The position numbers and the translations under genes were made by a program. This document shows, piece after piece, positions 5,408 to 34,256 of a stretch of DNA of 49,771 nt (its first letter is position 1; each line of letters starts with the position of its first letter). The notes beneath the pieces are model-generated. The model was not told where the DNA came from, did not search any database, and saw nothing but the letters and a program-made list of their open reading frames with translations. The DNA comes from a virus: positions 1 through 49,771 of IMG/VR virus record IMGVR_UViG_3300048927_000742. One strand, written 5' to 3'.

Positions 5408-6601
5408 TCACGCAGCCACCGCTCGGCTCTCGTAGGCATGTGCGGCTTCGATCTGCCGCCCGATCCACGTGATGACCGGAACGGCGAACGAGTTACCGAG
5501 CATCTTGTAGCGCGGGCCGTCGGCCATCGGCCGGCCCTTGGTGCTCGGGACCAGCGTGTAGTTGTCTGGCGCTCCCTGCAGGCGCTCACACTCGATCGGG
5601 GTGAGCCGGCGGACCTGCATGCCGGCATGTACCGCAGGCGTCTGTCCGACGGACAGCGTCGGTGAAGTGCCAGCACGTGGGTCATAACCCAACGTCGTCT
5701 GAGTGCCGCCAGCCTGATGCGCGAATGCGACCGGCACCAGCGGCGTACCGCGCCCCGTGCCGTCCTCGCTCGCGTCGAAGCCGTCCGCGCGAAGCGTGTG
5801 GGCCACGGCCGGGATGATCGTGCAGGTCTCCCAGTCCTGCCGGCTGCCCTCGCCCGTTGTGTCACAACGGGCGAGGGCAGGAATCAGCTGGCGTCGTTCT
5901 GGGTCGTTGATGCCGCCACGGCGGCCAGCGCTTGCCGTAAGGCTTCCGGAAGCGCCTTCCCCCGATTCTCGGCGCGGCGCAGAATCCCCGCGCAGGCGGT
6001 CGGACTCAAGAAGTACCGGGGGGCGATTGATCCAGCTTCCAGTATCGAGGACAGCGAACGCGCGACGGCGCCGCTGCGCCACTCCGAACCACTGCGCGTC
6101 CAGCACACTCCATTCGACAAGTCCGCGTGGACCAAGCGCCACGCCCTCGTTGCCCCAGCCGTCTTTGGGGACATCGAACTCGGATCCTGCCAGCGCTCCA
6201 ACCACGACAGCAAAGTCGCCTCCCTTGTTGCTGCTGAAGGCGCCTGGGACGTTTTCCCAGACGAGCCAGCGCGCCCCGCAAAAAGTCCGAGCTGCATTGA
6301 AGATCCTCAGTTGTTCGTGAAACAGGCTGGAGCGGGCGCCGGCTAAGCCAGCACGCTTTCCCGCGACGCTCAGGTCTTGGCAGGGCGATCCGCCAATGAC
6401 GACATCCAGCGGGCCTAGGGCAGCGATCTGCTCGACGGTGATGTCCAGCACGCTGCCCAGGTTCGGCACTTGCGGCAGTCGGTGGCTCAGCAGCGCACAG
6501 GGTGCCGGGTCGATCTCGGCCACACCGACGCACTTCCAGCCGAGCGGCCCCCAGGCCAGATGCGCAGCCTCCATGCCGGAGAACAGCGACAGGTAGTTCA
6601 C
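5408..6601 (-). CDS. DNA (cytosine-5-)-methyltransferase
   Basis: Protein of 397 aa with the ordered m5C methyltransferase motifs: I (LSLFSGMEAAHLAWG), IV with the catalytic cysteine (VVIGGSPCQDLSVAGKR), VI (WENVPG), VIII (VAQRRRRAFAV), IX (RRLTPIECERLQGAPDNYT) and X (YKMLGNSFAVPV). The variable target-recognition region lies between VIII and IX. It would methylate cytosine C5 in a short recognition sequence, probably protecting phage DNA from host restriction. No cognate endonuclease gene is adjacent, so it is an orphan enzyme. The start is a GTG overlapping the previous stop as GTGA. Confidence 0.95.
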   Translation of the reverse strand: MNYLSLFSGMEAAHLAWGPLGWKCVGVAEIDPAPCALLSHRLPQVPNLGSVLDITVEQIAALGPLDVVIGGSPCQDLSVAGKRAGLAGARSSLFHEQLRIFNAARTFCGARWLVWENVPGAFSSNKGGDFAVVVGALAGSEFDVPKDGWGNEGVALGPRGLVEWSVLDAQWFGVAQRRRRAFAVLDTGSWINRPPVLLESDRLRGDSAPRRESGEGASGSLTASAGRRGGINDPERRQLIPALARCDTTGEGSRQDWETCTIIPAVAHTLRADGFDASEDGTGRGTPLVPVAFAHQAGGTQTTLGYDPRAGTSPTLSVGQTPAVHAGMQVRRLTPIECERLQGAPDNYTLVPSTKGRPMADGPRYKMLGNSFAVPVITWIGRQIEAAHAYESRAVAA

Positions 6602-16429: not shown

Positions 16430-16909
16430 ATGAACATCCTCGATGCAGCACACAAGACGGTGAAGGAATACCCGGGCGGCTCCGTGGCCCTGGCCACACG
16501 CCTGATCCGCATCAATGACGACGGCCAGGAAGTGCCGATGTCTGACGCGGTCCTCCGCAACAAGGTCAATCCGAACAACAGAACGCACCACCTGACCCTG
16601 GCCGAGGCCAGCGAGATCATGGGGCTGACCGAGAACTACCGGATGCTGCACGCGCTGGCGGCGGAGCATGGCTTCGTGCTCCATCGCTCCGACGCGCCCG
16701 AGGCCGGGTCGCTGATCGGCGCGCTGATCGACGCCGGCGAGATCAAGGGGAAGCTCTGCCAGATCATCGGCGACGCTCTGGACGACGACCGCATCACCCG
16801 CAACGAAGCGCTGCTGATCGCGGCGACCTGCAGCGACCTGCAGGAGGTGGCTTCGCACATCGCCCAGCATGCCCACGCAGCCGTTGCGAAGGCGAGAGCG
16901 GCAGCATGA
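16430..16909 (+). CDS. CII-family phage regulatory protein
   Basis: A 159-aa protein with the pattern of the CII/CP76 phage regulator family: LDAAHKTVKEYPGGSVALAT, AVLRNKVNPNNRTHHLTLAE, then EIMGLTENYRMLHALAAEHG. It keeps the 'LRNKVNP...HHLTLxEA' helix-turn-helix core. The C-terminal half is helical (ITRNEALLIAATCSDLQEVA), fitting a multimerisation domain. It is the first rightward gene after the leftward pair at 15.9-16.4 kb and presumably activates lysogeny promoters, perhaps one driving that pair toward the repressor. Confidence 0.85.
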   Translation: MNILDAAHKTVKEYPGGSVALATRLIRINDDGQEVPMSDAVLRNKVNPNNRTHHLTLAEASEIMGLTENYRMLHALAAEHGFVLHRSDAPEAGSLIGALIDAGEIKGKLCQIIGDALDDDRITRNEALLIAATCSDLQEVASHIAQHAHAAVAKARAAA

Positions 16910-24894: not shown

Positions 24895-25041
24895 ATGTAC
24901 GGATCGAGCTTGGACGGCATGTTTGCCGGGTTGATCATCATGGCCGCTCTGGCGGGCGCTGCTGTTCTCGGACTGCTGATGTGGCTGGTGCCGATGGCGT
25001 GGGAGTGGATCAAGCCCTGGCTGCACATGGTGACGGCATGA
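24895..25041 (+). CDS. 48-aa single-span membrane protein of lysis cassette
   Basis: A 48-codon gene beginning one base after the previous stop (ATG at 24895) and overlapping the Rz ATG (ATGA). The product MYGSSLDGMFAGLIIMAALA... has one long hydrophobic span followed by a Trp/Lys-containing amphipathic end (PMAWEWIKPWLHMVTA). Size, hydrophobicity and place between lysozyme-like and Rz genes fit a small holin, antiholin or pinholin. Confidence 0.6.
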   Translation: MYGSSLDGMFAGLIIMAALAGAAVLGLLMWLVPMAWEWIKPWLHMVTA

Positions 25042-25514
25042 ACCGGATCCTGATCGCCATCACCGCATTCGTCGTGTGGTCCGGGCTCGCCTTCGGCGCC
25101 GGATGGCTCTGGCGCGGCGACCGGGCGGAGACCGTGCAGGCCACCCAGGTGGCCACGTCCGCCAAGGGTGAGGCGCGGGCCCAGGCCACCGCCCGGACAC
25201 AAGAACACCAGCAGGCCGCCACCCTGGCCGAGATCGGAGACAAGCATGAGCAGGACCGCCAAGCAGCCCAAGCTGTCCCTGACGCCGTTGTGGCTGACCT
25301 GCGCGCTGGGAATCTCCAGCTGCGCGACGACCTCGCCACCTGCAGCACTGCCCGCCTGTCCGATTCCGTCACCGGCGCCATCGAACGTGATGCGCACGCC
25401 CAATTACGAGGAGAGGTTGCGGGCGCTGTTATTCAAGTCGGACGCGACGCCAACGACCAGCTCAGAGCAGCCCAAGCCGTGATCAAGGCGGACCGAGAGG
25501 GGGGCGTCCCTTAA
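25038..25514 (+). CDS. Rz-like i-spanin
   Basis: A 158-aa inner-membrane spanin. N-terminal signal anchor (ILIAITAFVVWSGLAFGAGW) followed by a long Ala/Gln/Glu-rich coiled-coil periplasmic region (ATARTQEHQQAATLAEIGDK...). It would join with the embedded Rz1 lipoprotein to fuse inner and outer membranes at lysis. Length and architecture match Rz. The start overlaps the 48-aa membrane gene (ATGA). Confidence 0.85.
   Translation: MNRILIAITAFVVWSGLAFGAGWLWRGDRAETVQATQVATSAKGEARAQATARTQEHQQAATLAEIGDKHEQDRQAAQAVPDAVVADLRAGNLQLRDDLATCSTARLSDSVTGAIERDAHAQLRGEVAGAVIQVGRDANDQLRAAQAVIKADREGGVP
25246..25482 (+). CDS. Rz1-like o-spanin lipoprotein, embedded in Rz
   Basis: A 78-aa protein read in the +1 frame entirely inside the Rz gene, from the ATG at 25246. 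A signal sequence (KLSLTPLWLTCALGISSC) ends in a lipobox ISSC, and the mature part starts CATTSPPAALPACPIPSPAP, the proline-rich sequence typical of Rz1. It ends with a charged tail. It would be exported, lipidated and sorted to the outer membrane, then pair with Rz. Confidence 0.8.
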   Translation: MSRTAKQPKLSLTPLWLTCALGISSCATTSPPAALPACPIPSPAPSNVMRTPNYEERLRALLFKSDATPTTSSEQPKP

Positions 25515-25616
25515 GCACCGTGTGCTGCGGGTAACGCTGCAAGGTGAATATCCGTAGCAGCGAGGACCCGTGAACTGCGTCGCGCTGCCTCGGCCGTGGC
25601 CGGTGCTACAAAGGGC

Positions 25617-25633
25617 GTGGGAATGATTCCCAC
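25617..25633. promoter_or_regulatory. perfect palindrome ahead of cysteine-rich gene
   Basis: GTGGGAA-TGA-TTCCCAC, a perfect 7-bp inverted repeat with a 3-base centre, ends three bases before the AAGGAG of the secreted protein gene. An extended -10-like sequence (TGCTACAAA, 25604-25612) just upstream would place the transcription start at its left edge. It could be an operator or a hairpin hiding the ribosome site. Confidence 0.45.
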
Positions 25634-25649
25634 ACAAGGAGATCTACGG

Positions 25650-25946
25650 ATGAAGGGCATTATCTTTGGAGTCGCAATTGCGGTAGGCGCAGTTCTCTCT
25701 GTAACCAGCCCGAACGCTCAGGCCTCTTGCGCGTCGATCTGCGCTCACGAGTACGACCTTTGCATTGAGGACGGTCGCACCGCCGCTCAGTGCCGGACCG
25801 AGCAGCAAACGTGCCTGGCGGACTGCCTCGGCAGTTCGGTAACTACCCAGCACCGCCAAACCAACATCAAGGACCAGAAGGGACAGCAGATCGTCCTGGG
25901 CCAGAGCCGTCCCGCCAGCCTCATTCCGCTGAAAGCCGATTCCTAA
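25650..25946 (+). CDS. secreted small protein with mirror-symmetric cysteine spacing
   Basis: A 98-aa protein from the ATG at 25650 (AAGGAG nine bases upstream). It has a clear signal peptide (MKGIIFGVAIAVGAVLS, cut near AQA|SC). The mature part contains six cysteines with spacing C-x3-C-x6-C-x9-C-x6-C-x3-C, a symmetric pattern expected of an alpha-helical hairpin held by disulfides, then an unstructured tail. It stands alone between the lysis cassette and terminase, with its own palindrome upstream and terminator downstream. It is probably a lysogenic-conversion gene acting in the periplasm or outside; target unknown. Confidence 0.7.
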   Translation: MKGIIFGVAIAVGAVLSVTSPNAQASCASICAHEYDLCIEDGRTAAQCRTEQQTCLADCLGSSVTTQHRQTNIKDQKGQQIVLGQSRPASLIPLKADS

Positions 25947-25970
25947 ATTCCCTCTCCGCATCTATTCAAG

Positions 25971-25995
25971 ACGCCGGCCTCGCGCCGGCGTTTTT
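25971..25995 (+). terminator. intrinsic terminator after cysteine-rich gene
   Basis: GC-rich stem ACGCCGG/CCGGCGT (25971-25991) with loop CCTCGCG, followed by a T run (25991-25995). Separates the secreted-protein gene from the terminase genes; late transcripts must read through it. Confidence 0.8.
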
Positions 25996-26038
25996 GTTTC
26001 CGCCTCCCACATATGGCCCCACCCGGGGGCGCCAGACC

Positions 26039-26497
26039 ATGCCCAACCTCAACCCGAAGCAGCAGCGGTTCGTCGCTGAGTACCTGAAGGACCAGAACGG
26101 CGCCAAGGCAGCCGTCCGGGCGGGGTACGCCAAGGCAACCGCCAGGCAGCAAGCAAGCCGCCTGTTAACAAATGCTGACATCGCTGCTGCTGTTAACAAG
26201 GGACACGCCCGGGTCGCCAAGAAGGCGGAGATCACCGTCGAGTCGCTCGCCCGAGAGCTGGAGCAGGCCCGCACGCTGGCCATCAAGGAGAAGCAGGTGA
26301 GCGCGGCAGTGGCCGCCACCATGGGCAAGGGAAAGCTGGCCGGCCTGCTGGTAGAGCGCCGGCATCACACGGGCGCCGTAGGCACCTACGACCTGACGAA
26401 GCTGAGCGAAGATGACCTCGACCGCCTTGAAACGATCCTCGGTCCGCTTGCCGACGCTGGCGGAGATCCGAGCGGAGAGGGCGAGACGGGCGGCTGA
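26039..26497 (+). CDS. terS: terminase small subunit
   Basis: A 152-aa protein of the Terminase_2 type: LNPKQQRFVAEYLKDQNGAK, AAVRAGYAKATARQQASRLL (helix-turn-helix that recognises pac/cos DNA), then NADIAAAVNKGHARVAKKAE and a helical oligomerisation region. The C-terminus is acidic/Gly-rich (DDLDRLETILGPLADAG). The ATG at 26039 is used because the signature begins directly after it. It overlaps the large subunit gene by 86 bases in another frame. Confidence 0.9.
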   Translation: MPNLNPKQQRFVAEYLKDQNGAKAAVRAGYAKATARQQASRLLTNADIAAAVNKGHARVAKKAEITVESLARELEQARTLAIKEKQVSAAVAATMGKGKLAGLLVERRHHTGAVGTYDLTKLSEDDLDRLETILGPLADAGGDPSGEGETGG

Positions 26498-30261: not shown

Positions 30262-31386
30262 ATGTTCCTCACCGATCGAGTCTCGGTCTCGGCGCCACGC
30301 CGGACCGCGGACGGCTACCTCGTGGCTGACGCCAAGGTGGCGCGCACGGGCATCCAGGAATACCTGGGCTCGGAAGTCGGCAAGCCCGACATGCCCATCG
30401 TGCGGCTCTACCGGCCCCCGGAGGAGGTGTTCTCCAAGGACGCCATGCACAGCTACGCCTATCGGCCCATGACCGTCGAACACCCGGCGGCCATGGTCGA
30501 TGCCAGTACGTGGCGCGCTGTGTCCGTTGGCCAAACAGGCGCCGAGGTGGTGCGCGACGGCGAGTTCGTCCGCGTGCCGCTGGTGCTCATGGACTCGGCC
30601 GCGGTGAAAGCCTGGGATTCGGGTAAGCGCGAGCTTTCCATGGGCTACACCTCCGAGATCGTCTTCCAGGACGGCATGACACCCGATGGCCAGCCATACG
30701 ACGCCATCCAGACCAACCTCCGAATGAACCATCTCGCGCTCGTCGATCGTGCGCGCGGCGGCAACCAACTACGCATCGGGGATGGGCGCGCCCCCGGTGA
30801 CAAGGATCGCGCCGACAACCCAACGAGGAACCACACCATGAGCGACACCAAGACCCGGACCGTCATGGTCGATGGGCTGCCGGTCGAGTGCACCGACGCC
30901 AGCGCCATCGCCATCGACAAGCTGCAGCGTCAACTCAACGACGCCGCAGCCTCGGCCACCGCCAAGGACACGGCCCACACCGCCGCCATCGCCGCCAAGG
31001 ATGCGGAGATCGCCAAGCGCGATGCATCGATTGACGACCTGAAGTCGAAAGTGCTCGACGCGGCCGCGCTGGACGCCCGCGTGCAGGAGCGTTCGGCCCT
31101 GGTGACCAAGGCCAAGTCTCTGCACGACGCCGACTACACCGGCAAGTCCGACATGGACATCCGCAAGGCAGTGCTGGTCGCCAAGCTCGGCGACGCTGCG
31201 GTGGCTGGCAAGTCCGACGCCTACGTCGAGGCGCGTTTCGACGGACTGGCAGACGGCGTGAAGCTGGTCGATCCCGTCGCCCGCGCACTCGCCGATGGCG
31301 CCCGCACCCCCGTAGCCGACCACGGCTACAGCGAATCGGTCCGCCGCCTGGCGCTGGGCCCGAACTACAAGCCGCAGGAGGCCTAA
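30262..31386 (+). CDS. DUF2213 prohead protease-scaffold protein
   Basis: A 374-aa protein. The N-terminal ~180 residues are a DUF2213 domain (VSVSAPRRTADGYLVADAKV, YRPMTVEHPAAMVDASTW, KRELSMGYTSEIVFQDG, RMNHLALVDRARGGN). The H-P and S-x-G-Y-x-S elements are like those of prohead serine proteases. A linker leads to a helical, Ala/Lys/Asp-rich C-terminal region (IAAKDAEIAKRDASIDDLKS) with scaffold character. It precedes the cement and capsid genes as expected. ATG at 30262 (GGAG upstream) is preferred over 30217. Confidence 0.8.
   Translation: MFLTDRVSVSAPRRTADGYLVADAKVARTGIQEYLGSEVGKPDMPIVRLYRPPEEVFSKDAMHSYAYRPMTVEHPAAMVDASTWRAVSVGQTGAEVVRDGEFVRVPLVLMDSAAVKAWDSGKRELSMGYTSEIVFQDGMTPDGQPYDAIQTNLRMNHLALVDRARGGNQLRIGDGRAPGDKDRADNPTRNHTMSDTKTRTVMVDGLPVECTDASAIAIDKLQRQLNDAAASATAKDTAHTAAIAAKDAEIAKRDASIDDLKSKVLDAAALDARVQERSALVTKAKSLHDADYTGKSDMDIRKAVLVAKLGDAAVAGKSDAYVEARFDGLADGVKLVDPVARALADGARTPVADHGYSESVRRLALGPNYKPQEA
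30838..31386 (+). CDS. possible nested scaffold protein (internal start)
   Basis: An in-frame ATG at 30838 (MSDTKTRTVMVDGLPVECTD) lies exactly at the border between the protease domain and the coiled-coil part of the DUF2213 gene and has its own GAGGAA eight bases upstream. Internal initiation would yield a 182-aa scaffold identical to the C-terminus, as lambda Nu3 lies within C. The good ribosome site in the middle of the gene is the evidence; expression is unproven. Confidence 0.5.
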   Translation: MSDTKTRTVMVDGLPVECTDASAIAIDKLQRQLNDAAASATAKDTAHTAAIAAKDAEIAKRDASIDDLKSKVLDAAALDARVQERSALVTKAKSLHDADYTGKSDMDIRKAVLVAKLGDAAVAGKSDAYVEARFDGLADGVKLVDPVARALADGARTPVADHGYSESVRRLALGPNYKPQEA

Positions 31387-31389
31387 GAC

Positions 31390-31839
31390 ATGCCCGCCAT
31401 CCAGACCACCTACCTCGACACCCAGCCTGCCGCCATTGCCGGTGCGCCGGCCACCATGGTCCCCAGCACCATCATCAGCCGCACCGTCGAGGATGTCGCC
31501 GGCATCGGCTTCGGCAAGCCGGTCCAGCAGGGCACCGCGGACAAGGGCATTGCCGCTTTCACCGGCGGCACCTTCACCGGCATCACTCTGCTGGACCGCT
31601 CCGCGACCGGCGTGGCCGGCAACGCCGACGCATTCCCGCAGCGGGCATCGGCGCGCGTCCTGACCAAGGGCGACGTCTGGGTGCAGGCCTCCGTGGCAGT
31701 CGCCGCGGGCAATGGCGTGTACCTCACCGCGGCCGGACTCTTCACCAACGTGGCCACGGCCAACACCGCCATCCCCGGCGCCCGCTGGGACACCAGCACC
31801 ACTGCGGCCAATCAGTTGGCCGTGGTCCGTCTCGGCTAA
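31390..31839 (+). CDS. capsid cement/decoration protein-like
   Basis: A 149-aa Ala/Gly/Thr-rich beta protein (TMVPSTIISRTVEDVAGIGF, GGTFTGITLLDRSATGVAGN, KGDVWVQASVAVAAGNGVYL) located between the protease-scaffold and the major capsid protein. The pattern and position fit DUF2190/structural cement proteins that stabilise the capsid surface. Strong Shine-Dalgarno (AGGAGG) within the preceding gene's end. Confidence 0.75.
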   Translation: MPAIQTTYLDTQPAAIAGAPATMVPSTIISRTVEDVAGIGFGKPVQQGTADKGIAAFTGGTFTGITLLDRSATGVAGNADAFPQRASARVLTKGDVWVQASVAVAAGNGVYLTAAGLFTNVATANTAIPGARWDTSTTAANQLAVVRLG

Positions 31840-31851
31840 GGAGCCACATTC

Positions 31852-32799
31852 ATGAGCGCACTTCCCCTGTTCGATGCCCAGGCAGCCCTGGGCTTCGTCG
31901 TGGCCCAGACCTCGATCATCGAGCCTGGCGTCTACGCCACCGTCTATCCGGACATCCAGTACCGCGACCTGATCCCGGTGGACACCTCCGGCAGCGAGTT
32001 CGCCACCTCGGTGACCTACTACTCCCAGGATCAGTACGGCCGGGCCGACTGGATCAACGGCAATGCCGATGACATCCCAAAGGCCGGCACCAACCGCAGC
32101 CAGTTCCAGACCGGCGTGCACACCGCGGGCATCGGCTACGGCTACGGCTGGGAGGAGATCGGCCGCGCGCAGCTGCTGCGCATCAACCTGCCGACCGAGG
32201 ACGCCAACGCCGCCAAGCGTGCGGCGGAAGAGATGGTCGATCGTGTCGCGCTCAACGGCGACGCCTCGAAGGGCTTCACCGGTCTGTTCAATGCAGCCGG
32301 TGTCACCCCGGTCGCGGCGCCCACGGGCGCGTGGGGCACGCTGCTGGCGCCTGGCACCGCCACGCCGGACCAGATCGTCGCCGACATGAACGCGGCGCTG
32401 ATGAACGTGTTCAACGGCACCAACACCGCGGCCATCGCCGATCGCCTGCTGCTCCCGTGGTCGAAGTTCCTGCTCATCTCCACCAAGCGGATGAGCAACG
32501 ACAGCGACATGACCATCCTGCAGTACTTCCTGGCCAACAACGTCTATACGGCGATGACTGGCCAGCAGCTGACGGTCCGTGGCATGCGGGGCCTGGACAC
32601 GGCGGGCGCCGGCAGCACCGCTCGCCTGATCGCCTACCGCTACGACCGGAACGTGCTGAAGCTGCACATGCCGATGCCGCACCGCTTCCTGCCGGTGTAC
32701 CAGTCCGGTCCGCTGCGCTGGGACGTCCCCGGCGTGATGCGCCTGGGTGGCCTGGACGTGCGCCTGCCCAAGCAGATCGTCTACGTCGACGGCATCTGA
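31852..32799 (+). CDS. major capsid protein (DUF2184 family)
   Basis: A 315-aa protein with the DUF2184 capsid pattern: VYATVYPDIQYRDLIPVDTS, VTYYSQDQYGRADWINGNAD, GYGYGWEEIGRAQLLRINLP, DRVALNGDASKGFTGLFN and the end RFLPVYQSGPLRWDVPGVMR. These are HK97-fold capsid proteins common in siphophages with DUF1073 portals. Preceded by AAGGAG and followed by a stable hairpin with no T tract, as often seen after highly expressed capsid genes. Confidence 0.9.
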   Translation: MSALPLFDAQAALGFVVAQTSIIEPGVYATVYPDIQYRDLIPVDTSGSEFATSVTYYSQDQYGRADWINGNADDIPKAGTNRSQFQTGVHTAGIGYGYGWEEIGRAQLLRINLPTEDANAAKRAAEEMVDRVALNGDASKGFTGLFNAAGVTPVAAPTGAWGTLLAPGTATPDQIVADMNAALMNVFNGTNTAAIADRLLLPWSKFLLISTKRMSNDSDMTILQYFLANNVYTAMTGQQLTVRGMRGLDTAGAGSTARLIAYRYDRNVLKLHMPMPHRFLPVYQSGPLRWDVPGVMRLGGLDVRLPKQIVYVDGI

Positions 32800-32807
32800 C
32801 CCGCCAC

Positions 32808-32831
32808 GGCCCCGGGCTTCGGCTCGGGGCC
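32808..32831 (+). other. stable UUCG hairpin downstream of capsid gene
   Basis: 10-bp stem GGCCCCGGGC/GCTCGGGGCC (one G-T pair) closed by TTCG, immediately after the capsid stop and before the next ribosome site, without a T run. It is probably an mRNA 3'-end stabiliser protecting the capsid message or a partial terminator. Confidence 0.6.
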
Positions 32832-32847
32832 ACAGAGGAGCACACGC

Positions 32848-33387
32848 ATGGAAATCACCAACAGCCACACCGGTCCGCTGGGCTTGCCCGACGGCACCAT
32901 TCTCGCCCCGGGCATTCCGACCAAGGTCCCGAACTGGGAAGCCCTGAAGAAGAACGCCGTCGTGCAGGCATGGCTCGACGCCAAGATCCTCGACGAATCG
33001 AAGAACGGCACCTACAGCGCCGTGCTGATCGGGACCGACACGCTGCCGGCGAACATCGAGCTGACGGCGACCAAGTCCGTACAGCTGGCCGATGTCGTGA
33101 ACCACGGCTTCAAAGTCTCCGGCCTGTCGCTGGAAGACTGGAACTCGCTGCCGGTCCCGGAACGCAACGAGAAGCTGAGTGCGGCAGTCGCCGCGCTGAA
33201 GGCCGAAGCGGAAGCGGAAGAAGCCGAGAAAGTTAAGGCCGCCGAACTCGCCGAGCAGGAGCGGGCCGCGCTCTTCGCCAAGCTCGATGCGCTGGAAGTG
33301 AAGTACGACAAGCGCACCGGCACGGCCAAGCTGCAGGCAGCGCTGGTCGAAGCCGAGAAGGCCAAGGCCGGCAACAACGAGGACTGA
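32848..33387 (+). CDS. hypothetical head protein with C-terminal HeH/LEM-like motif
   Basis: A 179-aa protein. The N-terminal half is beta-rich (HTGPLGLPDGTILAPGIPTK, PANIELTATKSVQLADVVN). The middle is an Ala/Glu/Lys coiled coil (ALKAEAEAEEAEKVKAAELA). The end (ALEVKYDKRTGTAKLQAALV) has the short helix-extension-helix seen in HeH/SAP domains at the ends of phage head proteins. The place after the capsid gene suggests a head-completion or DNA-binding role. Confidence 0.65.
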   Translation: MEITNSHTGPLGLPDGTILAPGIPTKVPNWEALKKNAVVQAWLDAKILDESKNGTYSAVLIGTDTLPANIELTATKSVQLADVVNHGFKVSGLSLEDWNSLPVPERNEKLSAAVAALKAEAEAEEAEKVKAAELAEQERAALFAKLDALEVKYDKRTGTAKLQAALVEAEKAKAGNNED

Positions 33388-33390
33388 CCC

Positions 33391-33903
33391 ATGTACGGAA
33401 CGGTCGCAGGCGCAGACGCATATCACGCCCAGCGGGCGAACTCCGCATGGGCGGCCGGCAGTGAGGTGGCGCGCACCGCAGCACTGGTGCGCGCCACCGA
33501 TTACATCGACGGTCGCTACCGCTTCCAGCTGCCAACCGGCACCTGGCAGTCCATGTTCACCGGTGCCCGCACCGCCGGCCGTGGCCAGCTCAATGAGTGG
33601 CCGCGCATCGGTGCCGTGGACTACAGCGGCTACCTGCTGCCGGCGGATGTTGTACCGGATGAGGTAGAGCGAGCGGCCTATGAGGCGGCGTTGCGGGAGC
33701 TGGCCAAGCCCGGCAGCCTTTCCCCGGACTACACGGCCAGCACTACCGCAATCCGCAAGAAGGTCGGCCCGATCGAGGTCGCCTACAGCGAGAAGACAGC
33801 TGACGGCACGGTGCCGAACCGGCCGATCATTTCGATGATCGACGAGATCCTGGCGCCGCTGCTTCGCCGACCGGTGCAAGGACCGGCCGTGGTGGTCGTA
33901 TGA
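33391..33903 (+). CDS. head-tail connector (DnaT-like ssDNA-binding family)
   Basis: A 170-aa protein with the signature of the phage adaptor family often labelled 'DnaT-like ssDNA-binding': YHAQRANSAWAAGSEVARTA, ALVRATDYIDGRYRFQLPTG, NEWPRIGA, VERAAYEAALRELAKPGSL and the end RPIISMIDEILAPLLR. Despite the name, the position between capsid and neck genes indicates a head-tail connector. Overlaps the next gene by ATGA. Confidence 0.75.
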   Translation: MYGTVAGADAYHAQRANSAWAAGSEVARTAALVRATDYIDGRYRFQLPTGTWQSMFTGARTAGRGQLNEWPRIGAVDYSGYLLPADVVPDEVERAAYEAALRELAKPGSLSPDYTASTTAIRKKVGPIEVAYSEKTADGTVPNRPIISMIDEILAPLLRRPVQGPAVVVV

Positions 33904-34256
33904 ACGCCATCTACGAGGATCTGCTGCAGACCGCGATCGAGCTGATCGAGGAGTTCGGCTACACGGCACAGCTCCGCCGCAAGGGCGCTCCTACTGGCCC
34001 GCCGCACAATCCGCAACCAGGCGCGGACACGTTCCACGACTGCAAGGTGGTGGAGGTCGAGTACAGCCTGACCAACCGAGACGCCACGCTGGTGCTGCGC
34101 GGGGACAAGCTGGGCCTCATCTCCACGGCCCTCGACATCGTGCCGGCCATGGACGACGTCCTGATGCTGGCCGACGGGAGCTACCGCTTCATCGACCTGC
34201 AGCCGCTCCAGCCGGGCGGCCAGGTGCTGCTCTACGAGTTCCACTGCCGCAAGTAA
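33900..34256 (+). CDS. head closure/neck protein-like
   Basis: A 118-aa protein (LLQTAIELIEEFGYTAQLRR) with a central beta barrel-like pattern (CKVVEVEYSLTNRDATLVLR, VLMLADGSYRFIDLQPLQPG) as in gp16-type stoppers of siphophages. Order (connector, stopper, tail completion) fits. No direct family recognition. Confidence 0.6.
   Translation: MNAIYEDLLQTAIELIEEFGYTAQLRRKGAPTGPPHNPQPGADTFHDCKVVEVEYSLTNRDATLVLRGDKLGLISTALDIVPAMDDVLMLADGSYRFIDLQPLQPGGQVLLYEFHCRK

Follow-up and report, generated by a model that had tools for sequence, protein, structure and literature searches.

Phage morons, discussed for instance for the Stenotrophomonas phage DLP4 (PMC6469090), are extra genes that carry their own expression signals, lie between functional modules, and are missing in related phages. 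The gene analyzed here, found in a viral sequence of 49,771 nucleotides (hereafter, the window), is of a similar kind: it is absent from the same site in close relatives, is followed by a terminator, and is preceded by a candidate promoter. Unlike the characterized morons, it encodes a member of a protein family with no known phenotype, and its expression in the lysogen is a prediction. The predicted fold of its product is shared with plant α-hairpinins, which, according to the corresponding section of PMC11591084, consist of two antiparallel helices stapled by disulfides, often have Cys as the sole conserved residues, and follow the motifs CX3C-X4-20-CX3C or CX3CX3C-X4-20-CX3CX3C. The window protein has the predicted helix-loop-helix, but its Cys pattern (3-6-9-6-3) fits neither of the motifs given there; it is bacterial, and no homology to the plant proteins was found. 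The best explanation, to which we assign a probability of roughly 60%, is that a host gene was captured by the phage together with its leader and terminator, as a self-expressed moron whose product would reside in the periplasm of the lysogen.

Genetic setting of the six-cysteine gene

The gene occupies positions 25650-25946 on the plus strand and encodes a 98-residue protein with predicted export. It sits between the genes for the two spanins and those for the small and large terminase subunits. Upstream, on the same strand, are the inner-membrane spanin Rz (25038-25514; PHROG 2466, E = 3.6e-27, with the Pfam Phage_lysis match just under its cut-off) and, nested in it, an Rz1-like lipoprotein spanin (25246-25482, plus strand; PHROG 4306, E = 7e-4, lipobox recognized by eye). 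The downstream neighbor is the terminase small subunit (26039-26497, plus strand; Pfam Terminase_2, E = 2.5e-21; PHROG 51). The presence of an integrase (1-990) and a CII-like regulator (16430-16909) identifies the phage as temperate, in agreement with the lysogen assumed in the original prediction. The intrinsic terminator that had been noticed after the gene was found at positions 25968-25994 of the plus strand, as an 11-bp stem with a T run; the fold over 25960-26000 has an energy of -18.7 kcal/mol (z = -4.3). Positions 25604-25995 enclose the whole unit, from the promoter candidate through the terminator.

Three other features of the window were observed along the way. Just 5' of Rz, positions 24895-25038 encode a 48-residue protein with one likely membrane helix (PHROG 33742, function unassigned; E = 0.0015), perhaps a holin. 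A minus-strand frame at 5408-6601 starts with a cytosine-DNA-methyltransferase-like sequence, as judged by eye. A 1066-residue open frame antisense to the head genes (30769-33969, minus strand) is probably an artefact of high G+C.

Related loci were fetched through the large terminase, yielding 73 viral loci and 14 from bacterial genomes, including Xanthomonas and Stenotrophomonas. None of the 73 viral loci encodes the six-Cys protein. The gap between Rz and the small terminase gene, 524 bases in the window, ranges from 9 to 1086 bases in the 42 relatives in which both genes could be placed, and none of these 42 gaps contains a terminator by the criterion used; the gene and its terminator are therefore an addition in the window phage, and a late-operon lysis gene was rejected because relatives lack it. 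Searches of 46 whole virus records (the 44 behind the related loci and two carriers of the 17-base palindrome described below) brought up no credible homologue; two matches had E values below 1 (0.0014 and 0.009), and both are interrupted by an internal stop. By tblastn, the phage collection had no match and plasmids yielded nothing useful; in a comparison of the DNA of the unit with phages the terminator stretch alone matched. Scanning contigs from viruses and genomes for patterns, starting from the protein or its relatives, was equally unproductive.

The predicted exported protein and its chromosomal relatives

The protein is organized into a signal peptide (residues 1-25), a helical hairpin (about residues 26-60), and a conserved tail (residues 61-98). 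The signal peptide, which the original prediction had rated as good, has a mean Kyte-Doolittle hydropathy of 2.16 over residues 3-20, followed by what appears by eye to be a plain AxA-type site, NAQA/SC; these features support the predicted secretion. A canonical lipobox requires Leu, Val, or Ile at position -3. None was found by eye in this protein, where A-Q-A-S precedes Cys27, so it was rejected as a lipoprotein, including a superinfection-exclusion lipoprotein with a lipidated Cys. In Gram-negative hosts, the destination set by a plain signal peptide is the periplasm. No signal for export across the outer membrane was identified in the window protein, which would accordingly be expected in the periplasm of the lysogen.

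The mature part contains six cysteines in an arrangement, Cys27-x3-Cys31-x6-Cys38-x9-Cys48-x6-Cys55-x3-Cys59, that has exactly the mirror symmetry originally reported. On an ideal helix, positions 0, 4, and 11 share one face within 40 degrees, and so do positions 0, 7, and 11; in an antiparallel hairpin, the Cys pairs 1-6, 2-5, and 3-4 come to matching heights of 0, 6, and 16.5 Å. With the three pairs equal in height and face, the mirror symmetry is what three disulfides between the helices would demand geometrically. When given the whole protein, AlphaFold2 predicted two helices, residues 24-41 and residues 45-59 (mean pLDDT 61, near 88 in the core); the core alone gave a hairpin with pLDDT 93. 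The confidence for the tail was low, yet the tail is well conserved with the two closest relatives. The protein can thus be modeled as an antiparallel two-helix hairpin with three disulfides, C27-C59, C31-C55, and C38-C48; the disulfide-locked hairpin proposed earlier is supported by this predicted fold and by the retention of the Cys ladder in relatives.

Foldseek found no match under E = 0.001, and fold searches overlapped with other Cys-stapled hairpins at noise level only. Two small Cys-rich helical hairpins resemble the prediction, the nemertean neurotoxin B-IV (1vib; Z = 3.1, rmsd 2.3 over 37 residues, sequence match E = 0.97) and the sea anemone acrorhagin I (6ux5; Z = 4.5, rmsd 3.2 over 43 residues). 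Because these scores are at noise level, the likeness is taken as convergent, with no evidence of a common function.

The gene is not an orphan. Among 395 genomes of the Stenotrophomonas rhizophila family (Xanthomonadaceae), 31 had a match to the single protein at E = 0.01 or better. The best relatives, L102 and L103, are 44 to 46% identical over the full length (E about 4e-23) and are followed by seven more (L104 to L110) at E values from 1.9e-11 to 1.1e-5; the weaker matches are mixed, some holding the six-Cys pattern and others being frame noise. A profile built from 18 members identified the family in 64 of the 395 genomes at E = 1e-5, several of them with at least 10 matches. At higher ranks, the same profile found matches in 4 of 369 genomes of the class (E = 1e-4), and a profile of 41 sequences found them in 4 of 349 genomes of the phylum. 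Five of these eight matches belong to the set already searched for the family (G049 and G121, each twice, and G147), and the others are G463, G576, and G816. The distribution is patchy even at close range: a close relative is present in 2 of 38 genomes of the genus of G416, and a single-protein query found none at E = 1e-5 in 91 genomes of the genus of G049. Two virus records and four bacterial genomes gave weak matches that on alignment resembled frame noise or chance; the exception is L093, which the profile placed in the family. The window gene, with its 3-6-9-6-3 spacing (3-6-9-6-3/4 in the family) after a signal peptide and its significant similarity to chromosomal members, appears from these searches to be the sole phage-borne member found so far.

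The relatives in the family are chromosomal and often form tandem arrays. L102 adjoins genes for DNA polymerase IV and a dipeptidyl peptidase IV (DPP IV-type); no phage gene was seen near it, and no prophage could be recognized there. The region around L103 (L132) is about 94% identical to that around L102 (L131). Elsewhere, an L104-type relative lies between genes for a LuxR-type response regulator and a large hybrid histidine kinase, as identified with Pfam (L133:5051-9841), and three similar exported proteins with conserved Cys and a common GVRNAGTSTFY stretch are encoded beside the L110 relative (L135:2991-4969).

All six cysteines are invariant in a 41-row alignment of relatives. This invariance is partly built in, since a loose six-Cys pattern served to pick the rows, but the choice of spacing among those the pattern permits is not. 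That spacing was kept in homologues rather than lost, being 3-6-9-6-3 in 25 of the 41 sequences, 3-6-9-6-4 in 14, and 3-6-8-6-3 and 3-6-6-6-3 in one each. The pattern is present at the match in 31 of 33 profile-match loci; L141 lacks it, and the other exception, L152, is the same place as L113+719, where the pattern is present. Besides the cysteines, conservation is seen at a Gly in the loop, which is nearly invariant, and at a position in helix 1 that is aromatic in most sequences. Purifying selection within ortholog sets is indicated by low dN relative to dS: the values are 0.04/0.31 for L102 and L103, and each of the 45 pairings among ten L129-type genes has dN below dS. The gene tree has a single starred branch, L102+L103, and does not firmly place the phage gene, so that the direction of transfer rests on the distribution described above.

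No convincing family match was obtained in Pfam, NCBIfam, PHROGs, or PADLOC, the last of these run with the window protein only. Matches to Myticin (E = 0.006) and Hefutoxin (E = 0.65) were taken as chance Cys matches. PHROG 10261, annotated as a moron and membrane protein, matched the window protein weakly (E = 0.006), probably by chance, since only 1 of 18 family members matched it. A search of open-licence papers, which is weak evidence of absence, found none on a six-Cys hairpin family. The protein family thus appears to be undescribed in the libraries searched; the moron is of a known kind.

The leader and its palindrome

A consensus scan found no sigma-70 promoter, and the scanner also missed the terminator; given this result, the promoter was deduced from the conserved sequence TGCTACAAA (25604-25612, plus strand), a putative extended -10 element that recurs as TGCTA(G/C)AA 5' of L102, L103, and L107. 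Transcription would be expected to start near 25617-25619. The 17-base perfect palindrome GTGGGAATGATTCCCAC was found where it had been reported, at the ribosome site (25617-25633, plus strand). It has eight-base arms around one base, is the sole match in the window at up to three mismatches (0.09 expected), and ends two bases 5' of the Shine-Dalgarno sequence AAGGAG (25636-25641, plus strand; recognized by eye), which is conserved in L102, L103, and L107. As RNA, the palindrome is predicted to fold into a 7-bp stem with a 3-base loop at the predicted 5' end of the transcript.

Conservation is concentrated in this leader. Over the 47 bases preceding the start codon, identity to L102 and L103 is 75 to 77%, compared with 51 to 56% further upstream and 60% in the open reading frame; the same three stretches in L107 give 71, 50, and 49%. 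The conserved elements are TGCTA(G/C)AA, the palindrome core, and the ribosome site. The L107 leader keeps the stem, with an altered loop and one outer pair changed from T-A to C-G, and a terminator comparable to that of the phage follows L102 and L103. At this position, other subfamilies have stems of different sequence, among them GCCTGG...CCAGGC, GCCTGA...TCAGGC, and GCCCG...CGGGC. Under a criterion of at least 5 bp, with stem pairs plus G-C pairs of at least 9, leader stems were found in 9 of 22 diverged family representatives; among other genes from these loci, used as controls, 8 of 42 had one (p = 0.058). The result is borderline, with only a modest enrichment of such stem-loops in the family; dinucleotide shuffles of the leaders gave a mean of 1.3 of 22 and reached 9 in none of 1000. 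The L104-type relatives have no such stem by the same criterion.

A perfect dyad at the expected start of transcription, with its sequence conserved in L102 and L103, would also suit a repressor operator that lets a phage or host regulator switch the gene individually. This reading is unlikely, as the core GGGAATGATTCCC is found exactly once each in the genomes of L102 and L103 (G416 and G428), at the six-Cys gene, once in the window, and, as an exact core, in none of five further genomes, and as the stems of other subfamilies differ in sequence. A regulon operator was rejected because the site does not recur at other genes. The 17-mer also occurs in AT-rich stretches of two other viral contigs; 400 to 500 bases read beside it show no sign of a six-Cys gene, the protein search of the whole records was empty, and these occurrences were dismissed as coincidence. 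Since the core occurs once per genome, and only at the six-Cys gene, the palindrome is more likely to act as a gene-bound 5' RNA stem-loop than as a regulon operator. The original proposal of an individually controlled gene holds in that the unit is self-contained; its reading of the palindrome as the control site is better replaced by the RNA stem-loop.

Stem-loops at the 5' terminus reportedly stabilize mRNA, that of papA among others, in work attributed to Emory in 1992 and to Bricker in 1999. The papA-type stems lie at or near the 5' end of the transcript, before the ribosome site, and the window stem, with its start deduced from the leader, is placed likewise. A 5' structure hinders RppH and RNase E and thereby protects mRNA, as stated in the relevant part of PMC3997798. 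An Rfam search produced nothing useful.

Proposed capture of the gene and candidate functions

The proposed capture of a host gene can be pictured as follows. A complete bacterial transcription unit, comprising promoter, 5' stem-loop, ribosome site, gene, and terminator (about 25604-25995), would have moved from a Xanthomonadaceae chromosome into a temperate phage, where it now separates the lysis cassette from the terminase genes. It would be transcribed on its own from the prophage, and the stem-loop just before the ribosome site would probably shield the mRNA from 5'-dependent decay, favoring steady expression. The product would pass through Sec and then be oxidized in the periplasm to a hairpin with the ladder C27-C59, C31-C55, C38-C48, and the conserved tail of about 38 residues may carry a specific contact. 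The most probable site of action is the lysogen's own envelope, rather than other cells, just as the chromosomal relatives would act in the envelopes of their hosts. A redox-linked or binding role in the periplasm is a first guess. The weakness of the promoter by consensus is a point against the capture of a whole unit.

The redox side of this guess draws on gene neighborhoods. In 11 of 16 family regions (L137, L138, L181 to L188, and L193), a glutaredoxin-like gene is located no more than a few kilobases away, and none was found in L189 to L192 or L194. The regions were hand-picked for clustered family matches, the array-bearing genomes may be close kin, and 4 of 14 regions in one batch showed no family open reading frame by the filter used. 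One of the 11, the membrane-anchored protein encoded at L137:6295-6702, was confirmed by Pfam (PF00462). The neighbor points to thiol-disulfide chemistry for that branch of the family, and the strong conservation of only the cysteines, a Gly, and an aromatic residue would suit a periplasmic thiol-disulfide partner whose disulfide ladder is its working part and exchanges with the glutaredoxin-like protein. We regard this as tentative and on balance improbable for the phage protein, given that the branch of the phage gene lacks the neighbor, none having been seen beside L102 or in the phage itself, and that structural disulfides account for the Cys conservation equally well.

Superinfection exclusion or receptor blocking at the lysogen envelope is quite unlikely. 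Exclusion morons are expected to be present in one phage and not in its relatives, and this predicted exported product of a temperate phage has that distribution; the protein nonetheless has no canonical lipobox and no homologue among the known exclusion proteins of Pfam, PHROGs, or PADLOC, and its chromosomal relatives are under purifying selection outside any phage context. More generally, no homologue was found with a function as a surface modifier, receptor blocker, or effector on other cells, the roles originally suggested. A secreted antimicrobial of the α-hairpinin type, directed against competitors, is very doubtful: the tandem, divergent copies would suit it, as would the Cys-stapled helix-loop-helix plan described for plant α-hairpinins in the section cited above (PMC11591084), but orthologues are under purifying selection, the mature charge is near neutral or negative in many members, and no dedicated exporter or immunity gene was recognized in the regions examined. 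A lysis-timing factor working with the adjacent Rz/Rz1 on the same strand, like a periplasmic antiholin, is highly improbable, because the gene has its own terminator and is absent from all 73 related loci (42 of them showing Rz and the small terminase gene), and because linkage to lysis genes does not extend to L102, which has polymerase IV and peptidase genes and no recognized lysis gene beside it.

Returning to the captured host gene, the phage copy turns an apparent orphan into an entry point to a bacterial family that is chromosomal, tandemly multiplied, under purifying selection, and absent from the main libraries. The signature C-x3-C-x6-C-x9-C-x6-C-x3-C offers a simple probe for other triple-disulfide hairpins. 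As a long shot, the family and the membrane-anchored glutaredoxin could form a periplasmic redox or quality-control system of the Xanthomonadaceae, in which the phage copy retunes the envelope of the lysogen under its mRNA-stabilizing stem-loop; if so, the phage gene would be the only phage-borne member so far of an undescribed disulfide-ladder hairpin family. With its compact leader and terminator, the phage copy amounts to a natural cassette for expressing a single gene, and its function should therefore be testable with one deletion or one plasmid.
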